This document shows positions 43,291 through 57,427 of a stretch of 64,000 nt of DNA, one piece after another. The notes below the pieces were generated by a model, which did no database searches, was not told the origin of the DNA, and was given only the letters and a program-made list of their open reading frames with translations. Position 1 is the stretch's first letter. Each line of letters begins with the position of its first letter. The position numbers and the translations under genes were made by a program. Origin of the DNA: Streptomyces sp. NBC_00708 (GTDB taxonomy: Bacteria > Actinomycetota > Actinomycetes > Streptomycetales > Streptomycetaceae); assembly GCA_036226585.1 (NCBI GenBank), contig CP108997.1, positions 6,262,001 through 6,326,000 of the forward strand, in the 5' to 3' direction.

Positions 43291-45660
43291 TCAGCTGGTG
43301 TAGGCCTCCAGTTCAGAGAGCTGGGCGGCCGGCCAGCCGGTGTTGGCGGTGAACGTCAGCCGCAGATAGCGGGCCGATGTGCCGGGCAGGGTGACGGTCG
43401 CCTGGTTGCCGCTCGACGGATTGAAGGTGTAACCCGCCGAGCCCTTGAGGGAGGTGTACGTGTTGTTGTCGGTGCTGCCCGACACGCTCAGGGTCTGGGT
43501 GCGGGTCGCCCAGGCGGAGGACGGGGGCAGCTTCAGGACCAGCCGCTTGACGGACTTCGCGGCGCCGAGGTCCACGGTGATGGTCTGCGGGAAGGCGTTG
43601 TTGGCGCTCTCCCAGTAGGTGTTCGCGTTGCCGTCGACCGCGTTGGACGCGCGGTACACGTCGGCGTGACCGGACTCGGTGACGTTACGGCCCTGGGCGA
43701 GGTTGCCCGTCTCCTCCGGCGGGTCGGTCGGGTCGGTGGGCGGGTCCGTGGGGTCGGTCGGCGGGTCGGTCGGGTCGGTGCCGCCGCCCGGCACGCCGCC
43801 GTTGGTCCACACCGGGTCCGGCCAGACGCCGGTGCAGGCCGGCGGGTCGGCGTACCAGCCGGAGTTGCCGGAGCCCCGGGTGATCTGGAAGCCGCTGCCG
43901 ACGCAGTTGTGGATCGGGTTGGACTGCGCGATGTGCGTGGCCGTGACGTTGTCGAAGGTGGCCGTGCCAGGCGCCTGGATCTGCAGCGCGTAGGTGCCGG
44001 CGCCGTCGATCTTGATGTTCTTGAAGTGCAGCCCGTTGGACGCCCCCTCGATGAGGTGGATCGCCGCGTAGGAGCTGTCCAGGACTTCGGAGTCGGTGAT
44101 GTTGATGTTGCCGTTGATCGGTTCGTTGAGCCCGCTGAACCAGATCGCGCCGACCCCGAAGTTCCAGTTGTAGTCGCTGTTCCCGGTCCGGATCAGGGTG
44201 TTGCGGGCGGCCGTGGTGGTGCCCGAGACGGCCGTTCCCTGGCCGGAGTTGACGCCGGGGTAGCGGTTGGCGATGTGCAGACCGCCGCCGTTGGTGATGG
44301 TGTCCGACATGACGTTGTCGGACAGGGTGATGTCCTTGCCGCCGTAGGTGACGATGTTGTTGGCGAGGATCGGCAGGATCACCGTGTTGAACGTGAACTT
44401 GTTCTTCACGTTGGGGACGTTCTCCGCCCACATCGCCAGCCCGTCGTCACCGGTGTTGCGGACGAAGGTGTTGGTGACCGTCGAGTTGGTGACGCCGTAG
44501 TGGAAGTTCACGCCGTCGGCGGTCTGGTCCAGGATGCGGCTGTTCTTGATGGTGAAGTTGTCCATCGGGCCGTCCATCCAGGCGCCGCACTTGGTGTGCT
44601 GCATCCAGACGTTGTCGACGGTCGAGTTGGACAGGGCCCCGCCGATGGCGTTGACCTGGTCGTTGTCCACGCGCTCCCGGATGTCACCGATGATGGCGAA
44701 GTCCTTGAGCGTCACGTTGCTGCTGCCGCCGTCCCCGGCGTACTTGCCGTAGACGCCGACGGCTTTGCTCCGGTTGGACGGGTCGCGCCCGGTCAGCACG
44801 GAGTACCAGGGCCCGGCACCGCGCAGGGTCACCTTGTCCACGATGATGTGGTCGCGGACCTGGAACGTGCCCTGCGGGATGTACACCTCCTTGCCCTGCG
44901 CCCTGCCCGCGTCGACGGCCGCCTGGATCTTGGCGGTCGAGTCGGCGGCGCCGGTCGGGTCGGCCCCGAAGTCGCTGACGACGTCCAGCGCGCCGGAGGG
45001 CTTGGCGATGGGCGCGCCCACCTGCTCGAAGTCCGCCAGGTCGATGGTGAACGACGGTGAGTCGGCGGTGGAAGTGACCTGGAGGCGGACCTTCGTGCCG
45101 ATCGGCAGGGTCGACCCGAACATGGTCCGGGCCTCGTCGTAGAAGTGGTGCGGGTTGGTGTCGCCCGGGTTGTTGTTGAACGGGTAACCGCCGTAGTACC
45201 AGCCGTACTTGGAGGTCACCGGCACAGCCTTGGGCGAGGCCCCGTTCACCCGTACATCGATCGAGGCGTCCCGGCCCGTCCCGGCGGCGTTGTCCGGCAG
45301 CGAGTACCGGAAGGACATCGCGTTGGCGGGGGCGGTGAGCGTGAACTCCACGTACTCACCGACCGCGTCCAGCGTCACGGCCTGCCGGCCCGAGGCCTCG
45401 GAGGGCAGCGTGCCGTAGAGGCGGTTCGGGCCGATCAGGGTGCCGTTGGTGGCCGCGTACTCGGCCTCCTGTTCCTTGAACGGGACGGTCGCGCCGCGGC
45501 CGGGGACCGCGAGCGGCGAGGGGGCGGGGACACCGGCCGCCTGGGCGGCCGGTGCACTGGACAGGACCACGGCGGCGGCGGTGCCGAACGCGGCGAGTGC
45601 CAGCGAGAGCGAGGCGGATACGGACCGCCTGAGCAGGGGGCGTCGGGGTGGCGAAGTCAC
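43291..45660 (-). CDS. Secreted beta-helix carbohydrate enzyme with discoidin domain (GH87-like?)
   Basis: A 789-residue exported multi-domain protein. The signal peptide spans 1-42. Residues 55-215 resemble a CBM35/6-like module (EYAATNGTLIGPNRLYG...YVEFTLTAPANAMSFRYSLPD). Residues 225-610 are a right-handed parallel beta-helix starting with the pectate-lyase-3 signature DVVSDFGADPTGAADSTAKIQ, with many N-x-(I/V) strand repeats. Then comes a PTDPTDPP linker (about 640-665). Residues 665-789 are an F5/8 type C (discoidin) domain. This order resembles alpha-1,3-glucanases and mycodextranases of GH87, but polygalacturonase-like specificity is not excluded. The start is GTG 45660. It lies downstream of the other three secreted enzymes, separated by a 231-bp gap with an inverted repeat. 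Confidence 0.75.
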   Translation of the reverse strand: MTSPPRRPLLRRSVSASLSLALAAFGTAAAVVLSSAPAAQAAGVPAPSPLAVPGRGATVPFKEQEAEYAATNGTLIGPNRLYGTLPSEASGRQAVTLDAVGEYVEFTLTAPANAMSFRYSLPDNAAGTGRDASIDVRVNGASPKAVPVTSKYGWYYGGYPFNNNPGDTNPHHFYDEARTMFGSTLPIGTKVRLQVTSTADSPSFTIDLADFEQVGAPIAKPSGALDVVSDFGADPTGAADSTAKIQAAVDAGRAQGKEVYIPQGTFQVRDHIIVDKVTLRGAGPWYSVLTGRDPSNRSKAVGVYGKYAGDGGSSNVTLKDFAIIGDIRERVDNDQVNAIGGALSNSTVDNVWMQHTKCGAWMDGPMDNFTIKNSRILDQTADGVNFHYGVTNSTVTNTFVRNTGDDGLAMWAENVPNVKNKFTFNTVILPILANNIVTYGGKDITLSDNVMSDTITNGGGLHIANRYPGVNSGQGTAVSGTTTAARNTLIRTGNSDYNWNFGVGAIWFSGLNEPINGNINITDSEVLDSSYAAIHLIEGASNGLHFKNIKIDGAGTYALQIQAPGTATFDNVTATHIAQSNPIHNCVGSGFQITRGSGNSGWYADPPACTGVWPDPVWTNGGVPGGGTDPTDPPTDPTDPPTDPTDPPEETGNLAQGRNVTESGHADVYRASNAVDGNANTYWESANNAFPQTITVDLGAAKSVKRLVLKLPPSSAWATRTQTLSVSGSTDNNTYTSLKGSAGYTFNPSSGNQATVTLPGTSARYLRLTFTANTGWPAAQLSELEAYTS

Positions 45661-45775
45661 GTCGAAGTCGTCCTTGCGGCTCGTGGGGGCTCTTCGGACG
45701 TCCCACAGGCTAGGAGTACCTCCGCAAGGAAGTCCACGACGGTGCGCAAGATTCTGCTTCCAGAACTAAAATTTG

Positions 45776-45836
45776 TGACTCAAACCTGAGAGGAATGTGT
45801 TGAGTGCGCCGGTTGGCGAGGAATCGACGCACTCAA
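45776..45836. promoter_or_regulatory. ACTCAA boxes and inverted repeat before the beta-helix enzyme gene
   Basis: TTGAGTGCG (45800-45808) and CGCACTCAA (45828-45836) form a perfect 9-bp inverted repeat with a 19-base spacer, and a third copy of ACTCAA lies at 45778-45783. The gene end at 45892 is 56 bases upstream on the minus strand, so this may be its terminator. The three repeated boxes favour an operator for the gene starting at 45660. Confidence 0.4.
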
Positions 45837-45891
45837 CGTTCGTACCGCGCAAGCGACTTGCGGGGGTGAGCCGTTGTCCCGCCCGACCCGG

Positions 45892-48126
45892 TCAGGCGGT
45901 GCGCAGCGCCAGCCAGTCGAGCTCGGCATACCCCTCGCCCTTGGCCAGCCGGATGTGGTTCACCCCCTCGCGCAGCGTGAGCCGGACGGTGGCGGTGCCC
46001 TCGTCGGCGTCCTGCCGGGGGCCGCTGAGCCAGCCACCGGTGGACGGGTACGAGATCGTCCCGGCGGGCGCCCCTTCCACGGTCACCGTGTGCCCGGCGG
46101 TGCCGCTCAGCCCGTTCGCGTACCCGACGTCCACCAGGTACGAGCCCGCACGGGGAGCGTCGACGGCGAACTCCACGGAGCTCGCGGCCCCGTCGATGCC
46201 GCCCACGTAGTCCGGGAATTCGTTCCACTGGAAGTGCCGGATGACCGCGCCGCTCACGGTGGCCAGTTCCGCCTCGTAGCGGTGGGTGTCGGGGCGTACG
46301 TCGACGAAGTCGACCTCGGCGTAGCCCTCGCCCTTGGCCAGGGTGACCGTGTTCCGGCCCGCCTTGAGGGCGACGCGTTTCACCGCCGTGCCCATCGTGG
46401 TGTTGGCCCAGCCCCCGGTGGCCGGGTAGTCCACCGAGCCCTGTGCCTCGGAGTTCACCCGGACCAGATGAGTGGAGGCCGCGGTGGTGCCGTTGGCGTA
46501 GCGCACCCGCAGCAGGTGGATGCCGGCCTGCGCGGCGTCGACGGTGAAGGTGACCGAGCTGCCGGCCCCGTCGATCCCGCCGACATAACCCCGGCCCGAG
46601 GCGAGCGCGGTGTCGCTGCCGGTGTGCGGGACGGTCCCGGCCTGCACCGCGTCCTCCGCCTCGTACTTGCCCGGGTACGACGCCGCCGCCCCCGCGGGCT
46701 CCACGACGATCCGGTAGCCGTCGAGGTGCCGCATGCCCCGGATCGGGACGGTGAGGTCGCCGCCCGCGTCGAGCGTGAGCACCTTGTCGTACACGTTGTA
46801 CGGACCGGACTGCGGGTCACCCGCGCGCTCGGCCCTGCGGTCGGTGGCCAGGGGGTCCGTGGTCCACTCCGTGGTGTCGATCCGGACCCTGACCCGGGGC
46901 CCGAGGCCGCGCGCCGCGAGGCCCAGGACCCGGACGTCGATGTCGCCGTCGTCGCCGCCCGCCAGCACGGTGACGGACCGGGATGCCGAGTCCCAGGAGG
47001 CGACCGCGTCGGAGCCCTGGTAGTGCCGGGTGTCCCAGCGGCTGACGAAGAGCCGGTCGCCGCGCAGCTGTCGGAACCAGTTCATGAAGTACCAGCCCGC
47101 GTTGGGCTTCAGGCCGTCGGCGGTGCGGCGCAGGGTGTTCCCGAGCAGCCCGGGGTTGGTGTAGATGCCCATGGCCGCCGAGTCCACGCCGTACCGGGCG
47201 AACTCCGCCCAGTGCTTGATCATGGTGCCGGGCACCCCTTCGAACTCACCGTTCCCGGGCCCGTACTCCTCGATCATCACCGGCCGCGGCGAGATGCCCA
47301 GCTCCTGCTCCAGCGGGCGGTAGTAGCGGGTCAGGGACTCGGGCACATCCCCCGGGCTCGGGCCCAGGCTGTGCCAGCCGATGATGTCGGGCAGCGTGCC
47401 GGTGTTCTTCGCGTTGACCAGGAAGTCCCGCATGCGCGGCTGGCGGTCCGCCGACTCCCACGGGTTGTAGTGCTCGTAGTTGGGCCCCATGATCCTCACC
47501 GAGCCGTCGATGGCCCGGATGCGACGGACCGTCTGCGTCCAGAGCCAGTTGACCTTGGCGTCGTAGGTGGCGCCGGGGACGCGCGGGTCGGTCATGAACG
47601 GGCTGTCCGGCTGGGTGCCGAGCTTGTTGTCCGGCTCGTTGAGCGGGGCGACCGCGCTGAGCACGTCCTTGTACTTCTGGATCGACCGGGTGGCGCTGTC
47701 CACCTTGCCCATCCAGTCGTCGACGCCCTTCCAGACGTACGGCCAGCCGCCCATCAGGTCGTTGTAGCGGCCGACCATCTTCACGCCGGTGCCCCGCAGC
47801 TTCGCGGCCACCGACTCCGTGGAGCTGGGGTAGGAGGTGTCGCCGTCCCTGCTCTGGTGCTGGGCGAGCAGCACCTGCGTGCCGTCGGCGAGCGCGGCCG
47901 GGGTGTCGGGCGTGGTCGTCACCCCGAAGAGCGTGCCGAGCCCGGCCTTGGTGAGCGGCCCGGACTGCCGGCCGGTGTCCACGGTGATGACCTCGGGCGC
48001 GGCGGCTACGGCCTGCCCGGCCGCGGCACTGTCCTGGCCGGCCGAGATCAGCGAGCCGGCCAGGACCGCCGTGACCAGGGCGGCCGACGCGGCGGGCCGG
48101 CGGGCGGCGGAGACAGGGAGGCGCAT
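45892..48126 (-). CDS. Secreted clan GH-A glycoside hydrolase with two CBM35 modules
   Basis: A 744-residue exported enzyme starting at ATG 48126. After the signal peptide (1-37, cleaving near AAAGQ), residues 50-400 form a TIM barrel with a clan GH-A pattern: acid/base E164 in APLNEPDNK and nucleophile E286 or E287 in PVMIEEYGPG. Residues 400-465 are a beta-sandwich. Two CBM35 modules follow: KYEAEDAVQAG...LAKGEGYAEVDFVDVRP (about 482-602) and RYEAELATVSG...LAKGEGYAELDWLALRTA (about 606-744). The barrel most resembles GH39-like enzymes (beta-xylosidase-type), but the family is not certain. ATG overlaps the preceding stop as TGATG, so it is coupled to the GH26-like gene upstream. CBM35 often binds xylan, mannan or uronic acids. 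Confidence 0.78.
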   Translation of the reverse strand: MRLPVSAARRPAASAALVTAVLAGSLISAGQDSAAAGQAVAAAPEVITVDTGRQSGPLTKAGLGTLFGVTTTPDTPAALADGTQVLLAQHQSRDGDTSYPSSTESVAAKLRGTGVKMVGRYNDLMGGWPYVWKGVDDWMGKVDSATRSIQKYKDVLSAVAPLNEPDNKLGTQPDSPFMTDPRVPGATYDAKVNWLWTQTVRRIRAIDGSVRIMGPNYEHYNPWESADRQPRMRDFLVNAKNTGTLPDIIGWHSLGPSPGDVPESLTRYYRPLEQELGISPRPVMIEEYGPGNGEFEGVPGTMIKHWAEFARYGVDSAAMGIYTNPGLLGNTLRRTADGLKPNAGWYFMNWFRQLRGDRLFVSRWDTRHYQGSDAVASWDSASRSVTVLAGGDDGDIDVRVLGLAARGLGPRVRVRIDTTEWTTDPLATDRRAERAGDPQSGPYNVYDKVLTLDAGGDLTVPIRGMRHLDGYRIVVEPAGAAASYPGKYEAEDAVQAGTVPHTGSDTALASGRGYVGGIDGAGSSVTFTVDAAQAGIHLLRVRYANGTTAASTHLVRVNSEAQGSVDYPATGGWANTTMGTAVKRVALKAGRNTVTLAKGEGYAEVDFVDVRPDTHRYEAELATVSGAVIRHFQWNEFPDYVGGIDGAASSVEFAVDAPRAGSYLVDVGYANGLSGTAGHTVTVEGAPAGTISYPSTGGWLSGPRQDADEGTATVRLTLREGVNHIRLAKGEGYAELDWLALRTA

Positions 48127-49352
48127 CACCGGCACCGCGCCGTGAAGCCGTTGTCGGCGAGGCCGCGGCAGAAGGAAGCCTTGGCGGCCGTGTAGCGGGA
48201 CAGCCGGCCGTCGACGAACCAGGTGGTGTCGGGGGCGAAGTCGAAGCTGCCGTCGTCGATGCCGTCCCAGCCGTAGCGGAAGTCCAGGTTGATGTAGACG
48301 ACCGAGCGGATCACCCCCCGCAGGTCGTACTCGCCCGGCAGGTTGGGGATCGGCCCCCGGTAGTTCATCAGCGAGAACAGCCGCTGCACCCAGCGGTCGC
48401 CCTGCACCTGCTCCATGCCGTCCGTGGCGCCGTTGTCGGCGGTGAAGTTCATCATGCCCGCCTCGGAGAGCACGACCGGTTTGCCGTGGTCCTTGGCGAA
48501 CTTGACCAGTTTCAGCACATTGGCGTCATGGTCGAAGTTCCGCCAGACGGCCGCCGGATTGCCGTTCTGGTCCGTCCCGATGTACGCGTTGCGGCACTGG
48601 TTGGCGCTGACGTCGTAGTTCTGCGGCGGGGTGCCGTTGTAGAGGTAGCCCCGGTCGTGGATCGGCAGGCACAGCTCGTGCGCGAAGATCGAGACCCCCA
48701 CCCAGTCCACCGTCGCGTCCCCGGGATACAGCGCCTCGAACTCGCCGCGCACCGGGTGATAGACGAACGACAGGTTGTGCGCGGTGGAATGCCCGTCCAG
48801 ATAGGCGGCGAGCGTGTGGAAGGCGTTCTTGTACGAGGAGCAGCTCGCGTCGGTGCAGTGGTAGAAGCTGCTGACCTCGTAGTCCAGCCGCAGCTTGAAC
48901 GAGGCGGAGGGGTGCGCGTCGGTGAACGCCAGCAGCCGGTCCAGTTGTGCGGTGTGGCCGCCCACCGCGATCTCGGCGGTGACCGCCCGGGACCTGGCGG
49001 CCTTGGCGTTCTCGTCGCCGCCCTCGAAGCCGGGCGGGTTGTCCTTCCAGCTGATGCCGACCTGGACGGTCTTGCCCTGCGAGGCCAACTCCTCGGCGAA
49101 CGCCCGGTGTTCGGCGTTGACCCAGTCGCCGCTGCGCAGCTCGTAGTAGACCGAGCCGCCGTCGGCGCCCTGGGCGAAGGAGTTGAAGTCGTTGAGCGCG
49201 CCGCGCGTGGACTGGCCCAGCAGCAGTTCGGGCGCGGCCGGGTCCGTCGTGGAGGCGGTGGCCGTCTGCGCGGTGAGCAGGAGCAGGGTGGCGGTCGTCG
49301 CCGCGGCGAGGGCGCGCCGGAGGCGGCGAAGGCGTGGGGTGATGTGGGACAC
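48126..49352 (-). CDS. Secreted GH26-like glycoside hydrolase
   Basis: A 408-residue exported protein. It begins at GTG 49352, with GAGGAG upstream. The signal peptide spans 1-34 (LAAATTATLLLLTAQTATAS). The mature part is a single (beta/alpha)8 domain with LRLDYEVSSFYHC (E159, likely acid/base), ALYPGDATVDWVGVSIFA and GKPVVLSEAGMMNF (E297, likely nucleophile), the layout of GH26-type clan GH-A enzymes. The same three landmarks occur in the next gene upstream (49427-51061), so the two are distant paralogues. Three or more cysteines suggest disulphides. The substrate cannot be assigned: mannan, beta-1,3-xylan and other beta-glycans are all possible. There is no carbohydrate-binding module. Confidence 0.72.
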   Translation of the reverse strand: MSHITPRLRRLRRALAAATTATLLLLTAQTATASTTDPAAPELLLGQSTRGALNDFNSFAQGADGGSVYYELRSGDWVNAEHRAFAEELASQGKTVQVGISWKDNPPGFEGGDENAKAARSRAVTAEIAVGGHTAQLDRLLAFTDAHPSASFKLRLDYEVSSFYHCTDASCSSYKNAFHTLAAYLDGHSTAHNLSFVYHPVRGEFEALYPGDATVDWVGVSIFAHELCLPIHDRGYLYNGTPPQNYDVSANQCRNAYIGTDQNGNPAAVWRNFDHDANVLKLVKFAKDHGKPVVLSEAGMMNFTADNGATDGMEQVQGDRWVQRLFSLMNYRGPIPNLPGEYDLRGVIRSVVYINLDFRYGWDGIDDGSFDFAPDTTWFVDGRLSRYTAAKASFCRGLADNGFTARCR

Positions 49353-49426
49353 GGGGTCTCCTCGGTACGGGTGGGGGAAGCGGGGTGCCGTGCGCGGCGG
49401 GAACGGCACGGCACCCCGGAGGAGGA

Positions 49427-51061
49427 TCAGGGAGCGGTCCAGCTCATGACCGGGGTCGTGAGCTGGCTGGTCCGTGTCGTGGGCTGGTAGTTGAAGGAGT
49501 ACGAGAGCGTGGCACCGTGCGGGACGGTCACCGGGAGTTCCCAGCGCCCGGCGTCCTTGTCGTAGGTGAGGAAGTAGTTCTGCGGCGCCCCGCCGTCGAT
49601 CCGGTACCGCACGGTGACGAAGGTGGCCTCGAAGTTCTTCGGGGTGAACCGGATGGTGGTGGCCGGGCTGGTCACGACGGACTGGGTGTACGTGGGCTCC
49701 GTACCGCTCCCGCCGCCGTCACCCGGGTCCGCGGGGTCCGTGGGATCGGGGGTGGGCGTCGGTGAGGGGCCCGTCGAACCGGAGGAACCGGTCGACCACA
49801 GGGGCTTCTTGATCTCGGCGACGAAGTTGCTCAGCACCGTGGCGTTCGCCTGGACGCGCGAGTCGCCCCAGTTGCCGTTCGCGCAGCCCGGACCGCCCGC
49901 CTGGGCGCCGGGGGAGCACTGCCACTGCGTCTGGGAGTCCCAGTCGGTATTGATGTAGGCCGCCGCGCGGATGACGTCCTTGTTGGTGTTCACCCAGTCG
50001 AAGTAGCCGGCGTGCCAGCCGTCCCAGATGGCCTGTCCGCTCGCGGGTGCCGGGTTGTTGGTGAAGATGCAGCTGGTGCTGCCGGCCCCGGTCCGGGCGC
50101 CCTGGGGCGCAGCCTCGGCGACCATCGCGGGCTTGCCGTGCGACCGGGCGAATTCCAGCACCCGGTTCTGCAGGCCCACCGGATCGGTGTCGTGCGAGCC
50201 GCAGCCCCACTGGGTCTGCACGGAGCGGGAGTTGTAGAAGGCCGACAGCCCGACCCAGTCGACGTAGGCGTCACCCGGGTACCAGGTGTCGAAGTGCTGG
50301 GGGTCGGTGACGACGTACCCCCACTCCGGGTGGTCGCTGCTGGTGTTCACCGGCCATGCGGCGCTCTGCCAGACGGTCGCGACCCGGGAGGCGCCGAGCG
50401 CGTCGATGCGGCCCTTGATGTAGCGGAAGGCGTCCTTGTAGAAGCCGGCGCTGTAGCAGTTCCACGGCCCGTCGTATTCGTAGCCGATGCGCAGGAGGAT
50501 GTCCCGGTCGTAGCTCTTGAACCGGTTGATCATCTCGTCGACCTTGGCACGGTACTGGGTGATCAGATTCGGGCTGCCCGCGGTGACGTCGTCGTCGTTG
50601 CGGCCGATGATGGCGCGCAGCGGCTGGTTGTTGCAGCCGGAGGTGGCGTCGGAGAGATAGAGCCCGACGGCCACGGCCGCGCCAGGGTACTCGTTCATCG
50701 TCCGGGCGAAGTCCACGGTGCCCGCACCCCAGTTGACCGGCCCGTTCATGCCGGCCAGCGGTGCGGGGGAGCCGCCGAGGACCAGGTTGGTGTACAGGGT
50801 GACCCCGCCCGGGGCCGGTGCGCCCAGCTCCTGGCGGCCGAGGACGTCGGTGCGGTAGTCGGTCAGGGTGTCGCTGTCCTGGCCCATCACCATCATCACC
50901 TTGCCGTCGGCCGGCACACCGCGGCCCGACAGCGTGGCCGCGGTGGCCGCCGCCGCGGGGGAGGGGGCGCCGAGCCCGGCGAGGGAGAGCAGGGCGGCGA
51001 GGGCCACGGCCCCCGCGCCCACGGCCCGCAGGAGTGGTCGGCGGGGTGTCCGGTGTCTCAT
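49427..51061 (-). CDS. Secreted GH26-like hydrolase with C-terminal CBM56-like domain
   Basis: A 544-residue exported enzyme. The signal peptide is 1-39 (ALAALLSLAGLGAPSPAAAA). The TIM barrel (about 45-425) has LLRIGYEYDGPWNC (E195, likely acid/base), DTWYPGDAYVDWVGLSAFYN and GKPAMVAEAAPQG (E316, likely nucleophile). After a Ser/Pro/Gly linker (PTPTPDPTDPADPGDGGG), residues 455-544 (IRFTPKNFEATFVTVRYRID...SYSFNYQ) resemble CBM56, a module binding beta-1,3-glucan. It is the first gene of the leftward operon, divergent from a sugar ABC operon across a region with CGAAAC/GTTTCG repeats. The CBM points to a beta-1,3-linked polymer; the barrel does not settle specificity. Confidence 0.75.
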   Translation of the reverse strand: MRHRTPRRPLLRAVGAGAVALAALLSLAGLGAPSPAAAATAATLSGRGVPADGKVMMVMGQDSDTLTDYRTDVLGRQELGAPAPGGVTLYTNLVLGGSPAPLAGMNGPVNWGAGTVDFARTMNEYPGAAVAVGLYLSDATSGCNNQPLRAIIGRNDDDVTAGSPNLITQYRAKVDEMINRFKSYDRDILLRIGYEYDGPWNCYSAGFYKDAFRYIKGRIDALGASRVATVWQSAAWPVNTSSDHPEWGYVVTDPQHFDTWYPGDAYVDWVGLSAFYNSRSVQTQWGCGSHDTDPVGLQNRVLEFARSHGKPAMVAEAAPQGARTGAGSTSCIFTNNPAPASGQAIWDGWHAGYFDWVNTNKDVIRAAAYINTDWDSQTQWQCSPGAQAGGPGCANGNWGDSRVQANATVLSNFVAEIKKPLWSTGSSGSTGPSPTPTPDPTDPADPGDGGGSGTEPTYTQSVVTSPATTIRFTPKNFEATFVTVRYRIDGGAPQNYFLTYDKDAGRWELPVTVPHGATLSYSFNYQPTTRTSQLTTPVMSWTAP

Positions 51062-51138
51062 GGCGGCTCCAGAGAAGGGGGTGGGTGTCCGGTGAGCGCT
51101 CGAATGATGGAGCCGCCGGGCGGGCGGGGCAAGAGCGT

Positions 51139-51151
51139 ACGAAAGTTTCGT
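51139..51151. promoter_or_regulatory. Palindromic operator ACGAAAGTTTCGT
   Basis: A perfect 13-bp palindrome centred on G, 78 bp before the start of the leftward secreted-enzyme operon. It contains CGAAA-N-TTTCG, the element known for LacI-type regulators of streptomycete xylan/xylobiose genes (BxlR and xylanase promoters). The LacI gene at 56387 is the likely binder. Confidence 0.65.
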
Positions 51152-51297
51152 TGACCCGTGCAGGTCAGCGATACCCCTCTACGAAACTTTGCCAACTGGT
51201 CGGAGTCGGCGCGCGCGGATTGCCCTGCTGTATACCGCTTACCTCTGGTTCCTTCCCCGAAGAACAGCTCTGACGAAAAGGCATCCCGTAGTTTTTC

Positions 51298-51322
51298 GCG
51301 AAACTCTTGACAGATGTTTCGC
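51298..51322 (+). promoter_or_regulatory. Promoter/operator of the sugar ABC operon
   Basis: GCGAAAC (51298-51304) and GTTTCGC (51316-51322) are perfect 7-bp inverted arms spaced by 11 bases that contain TTGACA (51307-51312), a consensus -35 box. A bound repressor would block it. No good -10 is seen at 17-18 bases; the start codon is at 51375. Confidence 0.55.
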
Positions 51323-51374
51323 TGCGCGGCGACCTTGGTGCGACTTCATCCCGCACCTGTCCCGGAGGACCACC

Positions 51375-52652
51375 ATGGGCCGTACGCGTGCCCGCAGAAC
51401 CGCCGCCGCGCTCGCCGCCGCCGTCTCCCTCGTCGCCCTGTCCGCCTGCGGCACGGACAGCGAGGCCGACGGAAAGACCACCCTGACCGTCGCCACGTTC
51501 AGCGACTTCGGCTACAAGCCGCTGATCAAGGAGTACGAGAAGGCGCACCCCGACATCGTCATCAAGGAGCGCATCTCCCAGTTCGACCAGCACCACAACC
51601 AGCTGTCCACCCAGATCGCCTCGGGCAGCGGCGCGGCCGACGTCGTCGCCATCGAGGAGGGCTACCTCCCCAAGTTCCGCGCGGTGAAGGACAAGTTCAC
51701 CAACCTCGCCGACTACGGCGCCGACAAGCGCAAGAGCGAGTACCTGGACTGGAAGTGGGACCAGGGCACCCTCGGCGGCACCGACTTCGTGATGGGCTAC
51801 GGCACCGACGTCGGAAGCCTGGCCATCTGCTACCGCAAGGACCTGTTCGCGCAGGCCGGACTCCCCACCGACCGCGAGGAGGTCGGCAAGCTCTGGCCCA
51901 CCTGGGACGCGTACTTCGCCACCGGCGAGACCTTCCGCGCGAAGGTCAAGAACAAGGCCTGGTTCGACAGTTCGGGCAACATCTTCACCGCGATGATGAA
52001 CCAGACCCAATACGGGTTCTTCGACGCCGAGGACAAGTACATCGGCGAGACCAACCCCAAGGTGCACGAGTTCTTCGACGCCACCGCCAAGGCCACGGCC
52101 AACCACCAGTCGGCCAACCTCCAGCCCTTCAGCCAGCAGTGGAACGCCGGCATCAAGCAGGGCCGGATGGCCACCATGACCTGCCCGGCGTGGATGACCG
52201 GCCAGATCAAGACCGCGGCCGGTGAGGCGAACGCCGGCAAGTGGGACATCGCGGCCGTCCCCGGCGGCGGTGGCAACTGGGGCGGCTCCTTCCTCACCGT
52301 CCCCAAGCAGAGCAAGCACGTGAAGGAAGCCGCCGCGCTCGCCGACTTCCTGACCTCGGCCGCCTCCCAGAAGAAGATCTTCACCGGCCCGGTCGGCGCG
52401 CTGCCCTCCCTCGTCACCGTCCTCGACGACCCGCAGATCAAGGGCACCAAGCAGCCCTACTTCAGCGACGCGCCCACCGGCGAGATCTTCGTGTCCTCGG
52501 CCAAGAGCCTCAAGCCGAACTACCGCGGCACCAAGGACCAGCAGGCCCGCATCCCCTTCGGCAACGCCCTCCAGCTCGTCGAGCAGGGCAAGGCCGACCC
52601 GGACCAGGCATGGAACAAGGCGCTCGAAGAGGCGGAGAAGAACCTCCGCTGA
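51375..52652 (+). CDS. Sugar ABC transporter solute-binding lipoprotein
   Basis: A CUT1-type extracellular receptor, 425 residues. The signal peptide is MGRTRARRTAAALAAAVSLVALSAC with lipobox LSAC and lipid-modified Cys at about residue 25. The SBP_bac_1 fold shows TVATFSDFGYKPLIKEYEKAHPDIVIKE at the N-terminus, DVVAIEEGYLPKF and WKAWMTGQIK-like PAWMTGQIKTAAG. It is the first gene of the rightward operon and should bind the oligosaccharide released by the secreted enzymes across the control region. BxlE-type xylobiose binding proteins are the nearest known context. ATG 51375 follows CGGAGGAC. Confidence 0.92.
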   Translation: MGRTRARRTAAALAAAVSLVALSACGTDSEADGKTTLTVATFSDFGYKPLIKEYEKAHPDIVIKERISQFDQHHNQLSTQIASGSGAADVVAIEEGYLPKFRAVKDKFTNLADYGADKRKSEYLDWKWDQGTLGGTDFVMGYGTDVGSLAICYRKDLFAQAGLPTDREEVGKLWPTWDAYFATGETFRAKVKNKAWFDSSGNIFTAMMNQTQYGFFDAEDKYIGETNPKVHEFFDATAKATANHQSANLQPFSQQWNAGIKQGRMATMTCPAWMTGQIKTAAGEANAGKWDIAAVPGGGGNWGGSFLTVPKQSKHVKEAAALADFLTSAASQKKIFTGPVGALPSLVTVLDDPQIKGTKQPYFSDAPTGEIFVSSAKSLKPNYRGTKDQQARIPFGNALQLVEQGKADPDQAWNKALEEAEKNLR

Positions 52653-52735
52653 CCTGAGCGGCGGTGCCGGCGCCGACCCGGCACCGCCGCAGCCCCCACC
52701 CCGTCCGACCCCGACACACCACACGGAGTACGCGC

Positions 52736-53686
52736 ATGGCGCTCCAGGCACGCATCCCCCCGGGCCCCGGAAGGAGCGGACGCCGAGCCGGCCGGCTGCG
52801 GCCGGAACGGCATCTGCTGCCCTACCTCTTCATCGCCCCCTTCTTCGTCGTCTTCGGCATCTTCGGGCTCTACCCGCTGCTCCAGACCCTCTGGGTCTCG
52901 CTCCACGACTGGGACCGCCTCGCCGGACCCGGCGACTGGACCGGGCTCGACAACTTCACCCGCCTCCTCGGCGACTCCGACTTCTACACCGCCACCTACA
53001 ACACGCTGAGCATCTTCGTGCTCTCCACCGCACCTCAGCTGGTCGCCGCCATCGCGCTGGCCTGGCTGCTGGACCGCAGACTGCGCGCCAGCAGCGTGTG
53101 GCGGGCCCTCGTCCTCGTCCCGCAGTACGTCTCCGTCGTCGCCGTCGCCCTCGTGTTCTCGCAGCTCTTCGGCCGGGACTTCGGCATCGTCAACTGGACC
53201 CTGGAGGGCCTGGGCATCATCAGCTCCCCGGTCGACTGGACCGCCGACACCTGGAGTTCGCACCTCGCGATCAGCTTCATGGTCATGTGGCGCTGGACCG
53301 GCTACAACGCCCTGATCTACCTCGCCGCGATGCAGGCCGTGCCCCGCGAGCTGTACGAGTCCGCGCAGATCGACGGCGCGGGGCGGCTGCGCACCTTCCT
53401 CAAGGTCACCCTCCCGGCGATCCGCCCCACCGTCGTGTTCACCGTGGTCATCTCCACCATCGGCGGCCTCCAGCTCTTCGCCGAACCCTTCCTCTTCGAC
53501 CAGCAGGGCAACGCCGAGGGCGGCGCCGAGCACCAGTTCCAGACGCTCACGCTGATGCTCTACAAGTACGGCTTCATCAACAACGACGCCGGATACGCCT
53601 CCGCCATCTCCTGGGTGCTCTTCCTCGTCATCGCGGTCGTCGCCGCACTGAACTTCCTGCTCGTACGCCGTTCCGACCGCGGCTGA
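52736..53686 (+). CDS. Sugar ABC transporter permease 1 (CUT1)
   Basis: A 316-residue permease of the MalF-like type. The basic N-terminus is followed by TM1 (YLFIAPFFVVFGIFGLYPLLQTLWVSLHDW, residues 29-58) and five more helices. The ATPase-contact loop is ELYESAQIDGAGRLRTFLKVTLPAIRPTV near residue 210 (EAA-like motif). As in nearly all actinobacterial CUT1 systems, no ATPase is encoded here, so the shared MsiK-type ATPase encoded elsewhere is probably used. ATG at 52736 starts MALQAR. It is followed 20 bases later by the second permease gene. Confidence 0.93.
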   Translation: MALQARIPPGPGRSGRRAGRLRPERHLLPYLFIAPFFVVFGIFGLYPLLQTLWVSLHDWDRLAGPGDWTGLDNFTRLLGDSDFYTATYNTLSIFVLSTAPQLVAAIALAWLLDRRLRASSVWRALVLVPQYVSVVAVALVFSQLFGRDFGIVNWTLEGLGIISSPVDWTADTWSSHLAISFMVMWRWTGYNALIYLAAMQAVPRELYESAQIDGAGRLRTFLKVTLPAIRPTVVFTVVISTIGGLQLFAEPFLFDQQGNAEGGAEHQFQTLTLMLYKYGFINNDAGYASAISWVLFLVIAVVAALNFLLVRRSDRG

Positions 53687-53706
53687 CCCGGTATCAGGAG
53701 AATCCC

Positions 53707-54618
53707 ATGGCCGTCACCACACCCACCCGGGTCCCCGCACCCCGCCGCGCCGAAGGGCACGGCCGCCGCCACAGACCGCCCCGCACCGGTCCCCGCCGCC
53801 CGGACCGGCCCGGCGCGCTCGCGTACGCCGTGCTCGCCGCCATCACCGCGGCCTCGGTCTTCCCGCTCTACTGGAGCTTCGTCGTCGCCTCGCACGACGA
53901 CAACTCCGTCCTCGCCGGCTCGACCCCACCCCTGGTCCCCGGCGGGCACCTCTTCGAGAACATCCAGCGCGTCTTCGAGCTGTCCGCGTTCTGGCAGGCC
54001 CTCGGCAACTCGCTGATCGTCGCCTCGACCACCGCCGTCAGCAACGTGCTGCTGTCCTCCCTGGCCGGCTTCGCCTTCGCCAAACTGCGCTTCCCCGGCC
54101 GCGGCTTCCTCCTGGTCTGCGTCGTCGTCACCGTCATGGTCCCGACCCAGCTCGGCATCATCCCGCTCTACATGCTCGTCACCGACATGGGCCTGTACGG
54201 GAAGCTCTCCGCGCTCATCGTCCCGGCCCTGGTCTCCGCGATCGGCGTCTTCTGGATGCGGCAGGCCGTCGAGGAGAACATCCCCGACGAACTGATCGAG
54301 GCCGCCCGCATGGACGGCGCGGGCCTGCTGCGCACCTACTGGCACGTGGTGGTGCCCGGCGTACGCACCACCGCCACCGTGCTCGGGATGTTCACCTTCA
54401 TGTTCGCCTGGAACGACTACTTCTGGCCGCTCATCGCGCTGCCCCCGGAGAACGGCACCGTGCAGATCGCCCTCAACCAGCTCGCGGCCGGCTACTACAC
54501 CGACTACACGCTCATGCTCGCGGGCGTCGTGGTCTCCGTCCTCCCGGTGCTGGTCGTCTTCACCGTCCTGGCCCGCCGCATCGTCTCGGGAGTGATGGCC
54601 GGCGCCGTCAAGGGCTGA
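53707..54618 (+). CDS. Sugar ABC transporter permease 2 (CUT1)
   Basis: A 303-residue MalG-like permease. After a 35-residue basic, arginine- and proline-rich start come six helices (YAVLAAITAASVFPLYWSFVVAS is TM1). The EAA loop is PDELIEAARMDGAGLLRTYWHVVVPGVRTT near residue 195, and the C-terminus is VLARRIVSGVMAGAVKG, the normal CUT1 ending. It pairs with the preceding permease. The ATG at 53707 follows CAGGAG. The gap to the GH43 gene is 42 bases, so the hydrolase is part of the same transcript. Confidence 0.93.
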   Translation: MAVTTPTRVPAPRRAEGHGRRHRPPRTGPRRPDRPGALAYAVLAAITAASVFPLYWSFVVASHDDNSVLAGSTPPLVPGGHLFENIQRVFELSAFWQALGNSLIVASTTAVSNVLLSSLAGFAFAKLRFPGRGFLLVCVVVTVMVPTQLGIIPLYMLVTDMGLYGKLSALIVPALVSAIGVFWMRQAVEENIPDELIEAARMDGAGLLRTYWHVVVPGVRTTATVLGMFTFMFAWNDYFWPLIALPPENGTVQIALNQLAAGYYTDYTLMLAGVVVSVLPVLVVFTVLARRIVSGVMAGAVKG

Positions 54619-54660
54619 CCGGCGGCACGTCCCCCTCCGCATCCACGTATCAGGAGACCC

Positions 54661-56361
54661 ATGACCGCCGCGCCGAGCGTCCGCGCACCCGGCCCCACCG
54701 TCGACAGTGCCGGGGCCATCACCAACCCCGTGCTCCCCGGATTCCACCCCGACCCCTCGATCCTGCGGGTCGGTGACGACTACTACATCGCCACCTCCAC
54801 CTTCGAATGGCTCCCCGGCGTCACCCTCCACCACTCCCGCGACCTCGTGCACTGGCGCTCCCTGGGCGGTGTGCTGGACCAGGAACGGCTGGTCGAACTG
54901 ACCGGGAGACCCGACTCCGGCGGGGTCTGGGCGCCCTGCCTCTCGTACACCGACGGGCAGTTCCACCTCGTCTACAGCGACGTCACCAACCTCTCCGGCG
55001 CCTTCAAGGACGTCCGCAACCAGGTGATCACCGCGCCCACCCCGCAGGGGCCCTGGTCCGACCCCGTGCCGTTCCCCTCGCACGGCTTCGACCCCTCGCT
55101 CTTCCACGACGACGGGCCCGGCGGCGACGGACGCAGCTGGGCCCTGTGGATGGAGTGGGACCACCGCCCCGGCCGCCATCCCTTCGGCGGGATCCTGCTC
55201 CAGGAATGGGACCGCGCTGCCCGCCGCGTCACCGGCCCGGTCCACCGCATCTTCACCGGCACCGGACTCGCCCACACCGAGGGCCCCCACCTCTACCACC
55301 GCGACGGCCGGTACTACCTGGTCACCGCCGAGGGCGGCACCGGCTGGAACCACGCCGTCACCGTCGCCCGCGCCCGCCGCCCGGAAGGACCGTACGAGAC
55401 CGACCCGGCGGGCCCCCTGCTCACCTCCGCCGGCGACCCGGACCACCCCCTGCAGAAGGCCGGCCACGGCAGCCTCGTCGCCACCCCCGCCGGGGAGTGG
55501 TTCCTCGCCCACCTCGTCGCCCGCCCGCTCACCCCGCTCGGCGCCTGCGTCATGGGCCGGGAGACCGCGATCCAGCGCATCGACTGGACGCCCGACGGCT
55601 GGCCCCGGCTGGCCGCCGCCCCGGACGCGGGCTCGGCCGCCCCCCGTACGACCGTCCCCGGACCCGCCCTCGCGCCGGTCCCCGTCCCCGCGACGCCCGC
55701 CCGCGACGACTTCGACGCGCCGGTACTCGGCCCCGTCTGGTCCACCCTGCGCCGGCACCCCGGCCCGGAGTGGCTGAGCCTCACCGAGCGCCCCGGCCAT
55801 CTCAGGCTGCGCGGCGCCCAGTCGCTCGGCTCCACCCACCACCAGTCCCTCGTCGCCCGCCGCCAGCAGGACCCCGGCCTCACCTTCACCACCACGATGA
55901 GCGCAGAGCCCGGCTCACCGCTCCAGATGGCCGGACTGGTCCACTACTACAACTCGACGCTCTGGCACTACCTCCACCTCACCTGGGACGAGGCGCTCGG
56001 CCGCGTCGTGCGCCTCGGCGTCTGCGGACACGGGGTGTACAGCGAGCCGTGCGACCCCCTGCCCGTGGGCGAAGGACCCCTGGAGCTGCGGCTGACCGTA
56101 CGGGGCGACCGCGCCCGGTTCGCCGTACGGCAGCCGGGGCAGGACGCCTGGCAGCCGGCCGGGCCCGAGCTGGACACCACCCCGCTCTCCGACGAGAGCG
56201 CCACCCAGGGCGACCCGGACACCGGCCACTTCCGCACCTGGGGCTTCACCGGCGCGTTCATCGGCCTGTGCGCCCAGGACCTCACGGGGGCCGGGGCGCC
56301 GGCGGACTTCGGCTGGGCCGAGTACCGGGCCGATACGCTTCCGGGAGCGGCACCCCAGTGA
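54661..56361 (+). CDS. GH43 beta-xylosidase / arabinofuranosidase, cytoplasmic
   Basis: A 566-residue glycoside hydrolase without a signal peptide, cleaving imported oligosaccharides inside the cell. The five-bladed propeller (residues 20-320) has the three catalytic acids of GH43: D31 (PGFHPDPSILRVGDDYYIATS), D144 (HGFDPSLFHDDG) and E207 (GLAHTEGPHLYHRDG). The C-terminal beta-sandwich (about 350-560) is as in XynB-type (GH43 subfamily 11) enzymes. Its closest family reading is beta-1,4-xylosidase, which fits the CGAAA-N-TTTCG operator seen upstream. Some members prefer alpha-L-arabinofuranosides. It is the fourth gene of the importer operon and precedes the LacI regulator. Confidence 0.9.
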   Translation: MTAAPSVRAPGPTVDSAGAITNPVLPGFHPDPSILRVGDDYYIATSTFEWLPGVTLHHSRDLVHWRSLGGVLDQERLVELTGRPDSGGVWAPCLSYTDGQFHLVYSDVTNLSGAFKDVRNQVITAPTPQGPWSDPVPFPSHGFDPSLFHDDGPGGDGRSWALWMEWDHRPGRHPFGGILLQEWDRAARRVTGPVHRIFTGTGLAHTEGPHLYHRDGRYYLVTAEGGTGWNHAVTVARARRPEGPYETDPAGPLLTSAGDPDHPLQKAGHGSLVATPAGEWFLAHLVARPLTPLGACVMGRETAIQRIDWTPDGWPRLAAAPDAGSAAPRTTVPGPALAPVPVPATPARDDFDAPVLGPVWSTLRRHPGPEWLSLTERPGHLRLRGAQSLGSTHHQSLVARRQQDPGLTFTTTMSAEPGSPLQMAGLVHYYNSTLWHYLHLTWDEALGRVVRLGVCGHGVYSEPCDPLPVGEGPLELRLTVRGDRARFAVRQPGQDAWQPAGPELDTTPLSDESATQGDPDTGHFRTWGFTGAFIGLCAQDLTGAGAPADFGWAEYRADTLPGAAPQ

Positions 56362-56386
56362 CCACACGCGGAAACGGACGGCAAGG

Positions 56387-57427
56387 ATGACGACGGAGAC
56401 CACCGGCACCCCCGGCAGGGTCACCCTGAACAGGATCGCCTCGGTGGCCGGTGTCTCCGTCTCCACGGTGTCCAAGGTGCTCAACGACCGCTCTGACGTC
56501 TCCGCCGAGACCAAGGAGCGCGTCGAGTCCGTGATGGACGACCTGGGCTACGAACGGCGCCCCGCCCGCCGCCGCGGCAGCGTCGTCGACCTGGTCCTCA
56601 ACGAGCTCGACAGCCTCTGGTCCGTCGAGATCATCCGGGGTGTCGACGAGGTCCTGGCCGAGGCGGGCGCCAGCATGGTGCTCTCCGCGGTCCACGGACG
56701 CAGCGCCGACACCCGGGAGTGGCTGGACCAGCTGGCCGCGCGCCGCAGCAGCGGGGCGATCCTGGTCGTCTCCGACCTCACCTCGCAGCAGCGCAGACGG
56801 CTCAGCGCGATGGACATCCCCTTCGTGCTGGTCGACCCGGTCGGCAGCGTCGACGCCCTGGTCCCCACGGTCGGCGCCACCAACTGGGCCGGCGCCGTCA
56901 GCGCCACCGAGCACCTGATCGAGCTGGGCCACACCCGGATCGCGCACCTCGCCGGACCCCGGCAGCTGCTGTGCAGCCGGGCCCGCGCCGACGGCTTCCG
57001 GGCGGCCATGGAACGCGCCGAGCTGCCCGTACCGGAGGGCTGGGTCTCGCACGGCGAGTTCAACGACCGCTCGGGCCGGCAGGAGATGGCACGGCTCCTC
57101 GACGGGGCCGCCGAGCGCGGCGAGGAGCCGCCCACCGCGGTCTTCGCCGCCAGCGACCTCCAGGCACTCGGCGCCTTCGAGGTGCTGCGGGCCCGGGGCC
57201 TGGAGATCCCGGCGGACATGAGCGTGGTCGGCTTCGACGACCTGCCCGTGGCGCGCTGGACCCACCCCGCCCTGACGACCGTGCGCCAGCCCCTGCTGGA
57301 GATGGCCTCCATGGCGGCCACCACACTGCTGCGGATCATCGACGGCGAGCAGGTCGACACCCTGCGCCTGGAACTCTCGACCCGCCTGGAGGTACGCGGC
57401 TCCACCGCCGCCCCCCGGAGCGCCTGA
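56387..57427 (+). CDS. LacI-family regulator of the polysaccharide locus
   Basis: A 346-residue LacI/GalR repressor. The N-terminal HTH and hinge are VTLNRIASVAGVSVSTVSKVLNDRSDVS (about 12-40), followed by the periplasmic-binding-type effector domain (VLNELDSLWSVEIIRGVDEVLAEAG; FAASDLQALGAFEVLRARGLEIPADMSVVGFDDLPVARWTHPALTT). It is the last gene of the operon, 25 bases after the GH43 gene. It probably binds the palindromes at 51139-51151 and 51298-51322, relieved by an oligosaccharide, as BxlR does in the comparable bxl locus. Followed by a strong bidirectional terminator. Confidence 0.92.
   Translation: MTTETTGTPGRVTLNRIASVAGVSVSTVSKVLNDRSDVSAETKERVESVMDDLGYERRPARRRGSVVDLVLNELDSLWSVEIIRGVDEVLAEAGASMVLSAVHGRSADTREWLDQLAARRSSGAILVVSDLTSQQRRRLSAMDIPFVLVDPVGSVDALVPTVGATNWAGAVSATEHLIELGHTRIAHLAGPRQLLCSRARADGFRAAMERAELPVPEGWVSHGEFNDRSGRQEMARLLDGAAERGEEPPTAVFAASDLQALGAFEVLRARGLEIPADMSVVGFDDLPVARWTHPALTTVRQPLLEMASMAATTLLRIIDGEQVDTLRLELSTRLEVRGSTAAPRSA

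Follow-up and report, generated by a model that had tools for sequence, protein, structure and literature searches.

Introduction

β-1,3-Xylan is known mainly from seaweed, and its breakdown has so far been described mainly as part of marine and gut biology. A β-1,3-xylan utilisation locus, xul, has been reported in Vibrio sp. EA2, and the same source, in surveying 47 strains that carry loci of this kind, counts a single member of the Actinomycetota, its phylum counts summing to 50 (PMC12125979). Among glycoside hydrolase (GH) family 43 enzymes, the β-1,3-xylosidase of Vibrio has been placed in GH43_11 and that of Streptomyces SWU10 in GH43_12 (PMC7142710). Two further points of comparison are found in Streptomyces itself, namely the CebEFG importer and the bxlEFGA-bxlR locus, the BxlR site being quoted as CGAAACTTTCG, the other strand of CGAAAGTTTCG (PMC4743123), or in the alternative form CGAANNTTTCG (PMC12772271). 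In the window analysed here, a 64 kb stretch (C1:6262001-6326000; contig CP108997.1) of the 7.65 Mb genome of Streptomyces sp. NBC_00708, nine genes form a two-armed locus that probably serves as an actinobacterial β-1,3-xylan utilisation locus. This reading draws on gene content, conservation among genomes, a regulatory box, predicted folds, catalytic residues and gene junctions. Among open-licence papers, no title or opening of an abstract describing such a Streptomyces locus was found.

A check of the open reading frames (ORFs) found four leftward genes (A, B, C and D) and five rightward genes, encoding a solute-binding protein (SBP), two permeases, a GH43 enzyme and a LacI-family regulator, at the expected coordinates. 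The families and positions of the five rightward genes (a CUT1 importer, GH43 without a signal peptide, LacI), as assigned from the ORF list and Pfam, agree with an original prediction made from the letters of this stretch alone, as do the four leftward ORFs with signal-peptide-like N-termini. These N-termini, the lipobox LSAC of the SBP and the lack of either in GH43 were judged by eye on the translations rather than by a prediction program. An NCBIfam scan of the locus proteins gave no model above its cut-off.

The GH26-GH43 core of the locus

The assignment is carried primarily by enzyme D (49427..51061, minus strand), whose best match among solved structures is the Vibrio β-1,3-xylanase XYL4 (2ddx, 1.3e-38), whereas the mixed-linkage xylanase AlXyn26A lies far behind (5e-12), with bit scores of 136 and 48, respectively. 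Alignment with 2ddx assigns the acid/base and nucleophile roles to E195 and E316, which are kept in all 23 aligned sequences. By its homology to solved GH26 enzymes and the presence of both catalytic glutamates, D is placed in GH26, and its sequence and catalytic residues are those of a secreted β-1,3-xylanase type. Its C-terminal carbohydrate-binding module (CBM) belongs to CBM56 (residues 465-531, 49469..49669, minus strand; Pfam 1.4e-14), as originally predicted. Among the best 120 of 959 matches to D, the name endo-1,3-beta-xylanase is frequent among Streptomyces proteins, and 12 of these 120 carry PF11606, a domain seen in proteins named family 31 carbohydrate-binding. CBM31 binds β-1,3-xylan.

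Enzyme C (48126..49409, minus strand), on which Pfam found no CBM, appears to represent a distant, uncharacterised GH26-type family. A single-sequence search against solved structures reached 2ddx weakly (0.011), while a profile built from 27 C sequences matched it at 1.7e-14. Both the GH26 fold and the catalytic glutamate pair were found in C, the predicted fold is closest to β-1,3- and mixed-linkage xylanases, and two proteins fuse a C-type to a D-type domain. The close relatives of C are mostly named hypothetical, with some GH26 or RICIN-domain proteins and one Beta-1,3-xylanase TXYA precursor (33%); two Legionella species carry a C-type glycosidase of about 33% identity (P0192 and P0193), one of them being the protein so named. 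Glucose has been reported in green-algal β-1,3-xylan, and the substrate ranges of Xyl4 and AlXyn26A have been described (PMC13351767, PMC12706835), and it is on account of these reports that C or the CBM56 module might be guessed to handle glucose-bearing stretches.

The check proposed in the original prediction, profile searches and structure prediction over 45892-51061, places D nearest a β-1,3-xylanase, C nearest β-1,3- and mixed-linkage xylanases and B nearest GH39-like enzymes. Of the polymers offered there, D itself, its relatives with family 31 CBMs and the recurring GH26-GH43 pairing all favour algal-type β-1,3-xylan. Mannan fits poorly, D and C being nearer to β-1,3-xylanases than to mannanases, and so does fungal wall glucan as the core target, given that D is nearest a β-1,3-xylanase and A is absent from most loci; mannan and fungal α-glucan were therefore rejected as core substrates.

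The cytoplasmic partner (54661..56361, plus strand) matches GH43 and GH43_C2 (Pfam 1.3e-91), its best solved match being 1yrz (1.1e-175). A tree of 41 chosen GH43 rows comprised 20 from actinobacterial GH26 loci (window included), 10 from Gammaproteobacteria, 9 plasmid-borne rows drawn from 157 matched plasmid records and 2 own paralogues. The GH43s of L034, L036, L038, L054 and L075 were excluded from it, and two rows were left unused: L120_ownparalog (an antisense ORF with a branch length of 10) and L119 (a long branch). The Streptomyces locus GH43s group together, with one long-branched own paralogue among them. Descent of the GH43 from marine β-1,3-xylosidases was considered and is not supported, as the tree does not join them.

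Related loci were gathered by a scan of named genomes, which gave 57 stretches of up to 10 kb on each side of D, some on shorter contigs; GH43 is present in 33 of them, C in 16, B in 3 and A in 2. Among named relatives, those closest to D and to the locus come from Streptomyces strains. The set of D, GH43, LacI and importer is found again in Streptomyces, Kitasatospora, Actinacidiphila, Catellatospora, Dactylosporangium, Planomonospora, Herbidospora and Paractinoplanes, which are largely soil genera, and D also has a GH43 next to it in members of the Gammaproteobacteria, some of which are marine (Colwellia, Alteromonas, Psychrosphaera, Cellvibrio and others). The core in Streptomyces and Kitasatospora is LacI-GH43-permease-permease-SBP opposite D; C is present too in most cases, though not in L040 or L055. 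In Paractinoplanes pyxinae (L065:4096-11194), two D-type genes flank a C-type gene next to a BxlEFG-GH43 operon. Among 101 same-genus genomes, D was matched in 13 (8 of these through short fragments only) and C in 7 (3 through fragments); first-look candidates in these searches, and in that for B, were only partly scored in many genomes, and absence holds at that sensitivity. A search for plasmid-borne copies of D gave no match.

Several observations weigh against a β-1,3-xylan locus. With Pfam GH26 scores of 17.3 and 18.0, respectively, D and C fall short of the cut-off (20.2), the CBM56 module has two solved relatives of which one is named a β-1,3-glucanase, and 24 of the 57 D loci, some on cut contigs, are without such a GH43. 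Foldseek on the predicted fold of C ranked AlXyn26A first and mannanases next, with 2ddx absent from its 50 rows. The nearest named relative of the SBP binds cellotriose, two loci (L037 and L074) have a LacI of the window's type with no box within one mismatch, and the xylose isomerase gene xylA lies outside the locus, about 150 kb distant at C1:6468912; a Pfam scan limited to the nine locus genes found no xylulokinase. The GH43 itself is 42% identical to Bacillus velezensis XynB, a value equal to the 41-47% shared with the Gammaproteobacterial locus members, and the latter fall among XynB/YagH-type rows in the tree, so that neither locus group forms one clade. Because the tree does not join it to the Gammaproteobacterial locus GH43s, the linkage specificity of the GH43 is an inference; at the same time, the absence of a single clade suggests that the GH26-GH43 pairing was formed more than once, and such repeated pairing supports a working pair.

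A target of red-alga-type mixed-linkage β-1,3/1,4-xylan, with C or D acting as mixed-linkage xylanases, is unlikely, even though it accounts for the first rank of AlXyn26A for C, whose structural Z to that enzyme is within 1.4 of the best, and for the report that mixed-linkage oligosaccharides are opened by enzymes of GH43_11 and GH43_12 (PMC7142710). It is opposed by the much greater nearness of D to XYL4 and by the description of β-1,3-xylanases as poor on mixed-linkage xylan (PMC13351767).

Accessory enzymes of the left arm

Enzyme A (43291..45660, minus strand) is a predicted secreted α-1,3-glucanase with a C-terminal F5/8 type C domain, assigned to GH87 by 7c7d (4.9e-117) and, in Pfam, by the CatAgl D1 (9.8e-49) and D2 domains, both above the cut-off. 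Enzyme B (45892..48126, minus strand) carries two CBM35 stretches, so that these modules and the GH87 character of A stand as first proposed. Its start ATG lies at 48126 in an ORF open from 48135. The catalytic part of B has no Pfam match; searches of solved structures gave 5u22 (1e-40) and 8uwt (9.1e-35), and these are also closest to its predicted fold (Foldseek E of about 1e-38, 26-27% identity over the whole catalytic domain). The classical GH39 xylosidase 2bs9 gave TM values of 0.65/0.59, the best matches being N2152 and the entry 8uwt, which is titled GH39-like. Both putative catalytic glutamates of B are present in all 26 rows, and its substrate may be either xylan or glucan; a literature search on 8uwt found no paper.

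The left arm was compared with two close strains, L034 and L039, which share 96-97% protein identity with the present locus in D, in C and in B's catalytic part, and a lower 88-92% in the CBMs of B and, for L034, in GH43. The C stop and B start overlap in TGATG (48124..48128, minus strand), the coupling reported in the original prediction, and this is the spot where both close strains hold an entire gene for a GH12-ricin protein (identified by Pfam in L034 and as a matching ORF in L039), preceded by a perfect CebR-type box, TGGGAGCGCTCCCA, a form given in PMC4898821. No CebR-type box within one mismatch was found in the 64 kb window. B and A meet at a second junction of like kind, at which L034 holds GH5 and GH65-like genes (Pfam) and L039 matching ORFs; about 33 bases of the window (45866-45898), covering the B terminus and what immediately follows, match neither close strain, in the place where these relatives carry about 4 kb. 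The region of about 200 bp upstream of A and its first 60 bp is conserved, at 94-97% over 264-265 bp against the close strains.

Elsewhere, B is found in other company. In G052, B (85%) again stands behind a GH12 gene, this time beyond the LacI end of the locus; a GH5 gene diverges next to it, and CebR-type boxes lie in the surroundings. Where B has neither D nor C nearby, a CebR-type box (at most one mismatch) lies just upstream in three of four genomes, two of the three being Catellatospora, while in Actinacidiphila rubida (L041) B follows D without such a box. A close B (at least 85%) occurs in 2 of the 101 same-genus genomes, both with D; 26 of these genomes were matched altogether, 24 of them at 25-36% identity. 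Among 34 genomes of the 57 loci searched for B, 10 matched, 6 at 67-97%, and 8 of 71 B clusters were tentatively co-placed with a C or D cluster, which is a rough sign of linkage only.

Since GH12 and B co-occur in three other genomes, loss of the GH12 gene in the present lineage would be a simpler reading than gain in the others; a search for the gene relocated elsewhere in the genome gave one distant GH12 only. A is close to D in 2 of the 57 loci, that is, besides this strain only in L034 and L039, and is probably a neighbour outside the conserved core. Judged by their distribution, A and B are accessory neighbours and not parts of the conserved arm, and the original view of the left arm as one unit does not hold, C, B and A being so unevenly present in the related loci and other genes being interposed in the close strains. 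It is improbable that A, B, C and D are one selected four-gene secretion operon read from a shared control region: all four read leftward and C and B overlap, but in the close strains C is separated from B by a GH12 gene with a CebR-type box, and B from A by GH5 and GH65-like genes, and B of G052 follows a GH12 gene outside the LacI end. Chance in the history of this strain accounts in part for the four-enzyme arm.

Importer, regulator and control region

The two arms meet, as originally proposed, at a shared control region, a divergent promoter with a xylan-regulon palindrome. The suggested shared inverted repeats were recovered in part, as one perfect palindrome, CGAAAGTTTCG, at 51140..51150, the predicted operator between the arms, and two imperfect copies with two mismatches each (51182..51192 and 51299..51309; motif scan). 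A scan for sigma-70 promoters and terminators gave 1 and 4 sites, where shuffled sequences gave 0.4 and 3.6. The genome holds four perfect CGAAAGTTTCG sites and none of the reversed control pattern; they lie in this locus, in the bxl locus, between genes for a Cip1-like protein and a polysaccharide deacetylase, and before a GH11 xylanase gene. At the third site (L014:4467-7007; G000:C1:741.5-744.0 kb), the Cip1-like protein, which bears a CBM2, and the deacetylase diverge around the box, which may make both of them members of the xylan regulon. The perfect box of the bxl locus lies just past the end of its GH3 gene (L013:8070; G000:C1:613069), and the bxlE-bxlR start region has three one-mismatch copies instead of a perfect box.

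In related loci, the box (at most one mismatch) was found in 16 of 23 hand-picked gap regions, in which two genomes occur twice (L032/L040 and L033/L043) and to which three loci and further gaps were added later. Over the 23 whole loci, the motif gave 24 matches and the control none; 17 matches fall in D-side gaps, 6 in the SBP-LacI gap of L042 and L044 and 1 elsewhere. In these two loci (L042:8612-8746, Planomonospora; L044:8710-8810, Herbidospora) that gap holds two perfect and one one-mismatch box each, besides the D-side box. Counted without correction for kinship, the box is present in 13 of 15 loci with a LacI 63-97% identical to the present one (11 of 13 distinct genomes) and in none of 8 loci with a LacI 47-51% identical (L041, L051-L054, L059, L060 and L065); three loci with the box have no LacI in view. 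This split fits a reading of the box by the locus's own LacI (56387..57427, plus strand; Pfam), and the genome's BxlR, to which the LacI is 50% identical, may read it as well.

The SBP (51375..52652, plus strand) has 5ixp as its best solved match (9.3e-108) and aligns over nearly its full length with CebE in complex with cellotriose (8bfy, 3e-83). Matched by eye on the alignment, with A73 (a second partner) excluded, 8 of 12 cellotriose contacts are kept (F70, E125, T172, D173, F282, W303, G333 and S334) and 4 differ (T72, M123, Q235 and S370). T72 and Q235 are described as contacting O6 atoms, with W303 doing so through water, and T72, M123, Q235, S370 and W303 are marked as varying in another CebE (PMC10714786). 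Xylose has no O6, and the SBP has T72 and Q235 altered but the water-mediated W303 kept; these differences are suggestive only, given the variation in that other CebE. The F-type (52664..53686) and G-type (53707..54618; start ATG taken from the translation) CUT1 permeases, both on the plus strand and both with Pfam BPD_transp_1, are 30% and 29% identical to the genome's own BxlF- and BxlG-type proteins, and BLAST of the SBP against the genome's BxlE gave no match.

The right arm had been taken for a bxlEFGA-bxlR type. A BxlR-type LacI and a perfect operator were indeed found, but GH3 and BxlEFG orthologues were not, and the genome's bxl locus with its GH3 gene lies elsewhere, at C1:613-620 kb. 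Judged by its CebE-like importer and its GH43 in place of GH3, the right arm is not of the bxlEFGA type. Importers vary between loci: in ten loci compared with the own bxl genes, five are BxlEFG-like (45-60%; Actinacidiphila, Dactylosporangium and Paractinoplanes), two are of a third kind (Planomonospora and Herbidospora) and three are of the window's kind at 35-66%, so the enzymes and the regulator would be the fixed part and the importers exchanged. The exchange beside the GH26-GH43 pair can be seen in L041, L053, L059, L060, L065, L042 and L044 against the Streptomyces loci.

A locus directed at the wall β-glucans of fungi or algae (β-1,3-glucan, and α-1,3-glucan through A) is very doubtful. 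It would explain the CBM56 on D, the GH87 gene next door, the CebE-like SBP and the CebR-type boxes near B in relatives; however, D is nearest a β-1,3-xylanase, the GH43 is of xylosidase type, the operator is a xylan-regulon box, A is rarely near D and five loci of other genera have a BxlEFG-like importer. Least plausible is a further bxl-like locus of the ordinary kind, serving β-1,4-xylo-oligosaccharides and with incidental secreted enzymes: although the operator is that of the β-1,4-xylan regulon and the GH43 also resembles XynB, D recurs beside the same GH43-importer-LacI set, none of the nine genes encodes a GH10 or GH11 enzyme (Pfam), as originally noted for the left arm, and a bxl locus with GH3 lies elsewhere in the genome.

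Proposed function and significance

According to the β-1,3-xylan reading, D, anchored on insoluble β-1,3-linked chains via CBM56, would cut β-1,3-xylan to short oligosaccharides, with C acting at its side, possibly where the chain is mixed-linkage or contains glucose. The products would be taken in by the CebE-like SBP and the two permeases, the cytoplasmic GH43 would free xylose from them, and the xylose isomerase encoded elsewhere would feed it into metabolism. LacI, and possibly BxlR too, is predicted to repress both arms at 51140-51150 until xylo-oligosaccharide is present. Loss of the CebR-boxed GH12 gene between C and B would have put B directly behind C, presumably on the resulting transcript.

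A further, tentative proposal, which we regard as possible rather than likely, is that C founds a family next to GH26 for parts of β-1,3-xylan that D cannot attack, such as glucose-bearing or mixed-linkage ones, that the polymer has a source on land which has gone unrecognised, as the spread of D and C in non-marine actinomycetes would indicate, and that GH12 loss re-wired B from the cellulose regulon into a β-1,3-xylan operon, Actinacidiphila rubida being an independent case. Given the recurrence of the locus in actinobacteria, one may ask where they come across β-1,3-xylan, and what these genera eat with the locus and the roles of the recurring families C and B are now testable questions. 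The locus would also illustrate the swapping of importers around a fixed enzyme-regulator core and the move of an enzyme between regulons through gene loss.

Comparison with known systems

The locus resembles Vibrio EA2 xul in its two secreted GH26 enzymes, ATP-binding cassette (ABC) importer, cytoplasmic GH43 xylosidase and xylose isomerase route. It differs in the CUT1 type of its importer, in its regulator, which is not XylRA but a LacI with a BxlR-type box, in lacking GH3, xylA and major facilitator superfamily (MFS) genes within the locus, in the CBM56 on D and in a C enzyme from a distant GH26-type family. With Streptomyces bxlEFGA-bxlR it shares a LacI half identical to the own BxlR-type protein, the palindrome and the combination of an ABC importer with a xylosidase, whereas the CebE-like importer, GH43 rather than GH3, the own secreted GH26 pair and the separate bxl locus set it apart. 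The SBP is alike to CebE of Streptomyces CebEFG over nearly its whole length, yet a third of the sugar contacts differ, T72 and Q235 included, and both its regulator and its operator belong to the xylan type. B is alike to 8uwt and 5u22 over the whole catalytic domain and differs from them by its two CBM35 stretches and by the CebR-type box above several of its relatives. The system is thus of a known kind, but its importer and regulator differ and two of its enzyme families are uncharacterised.

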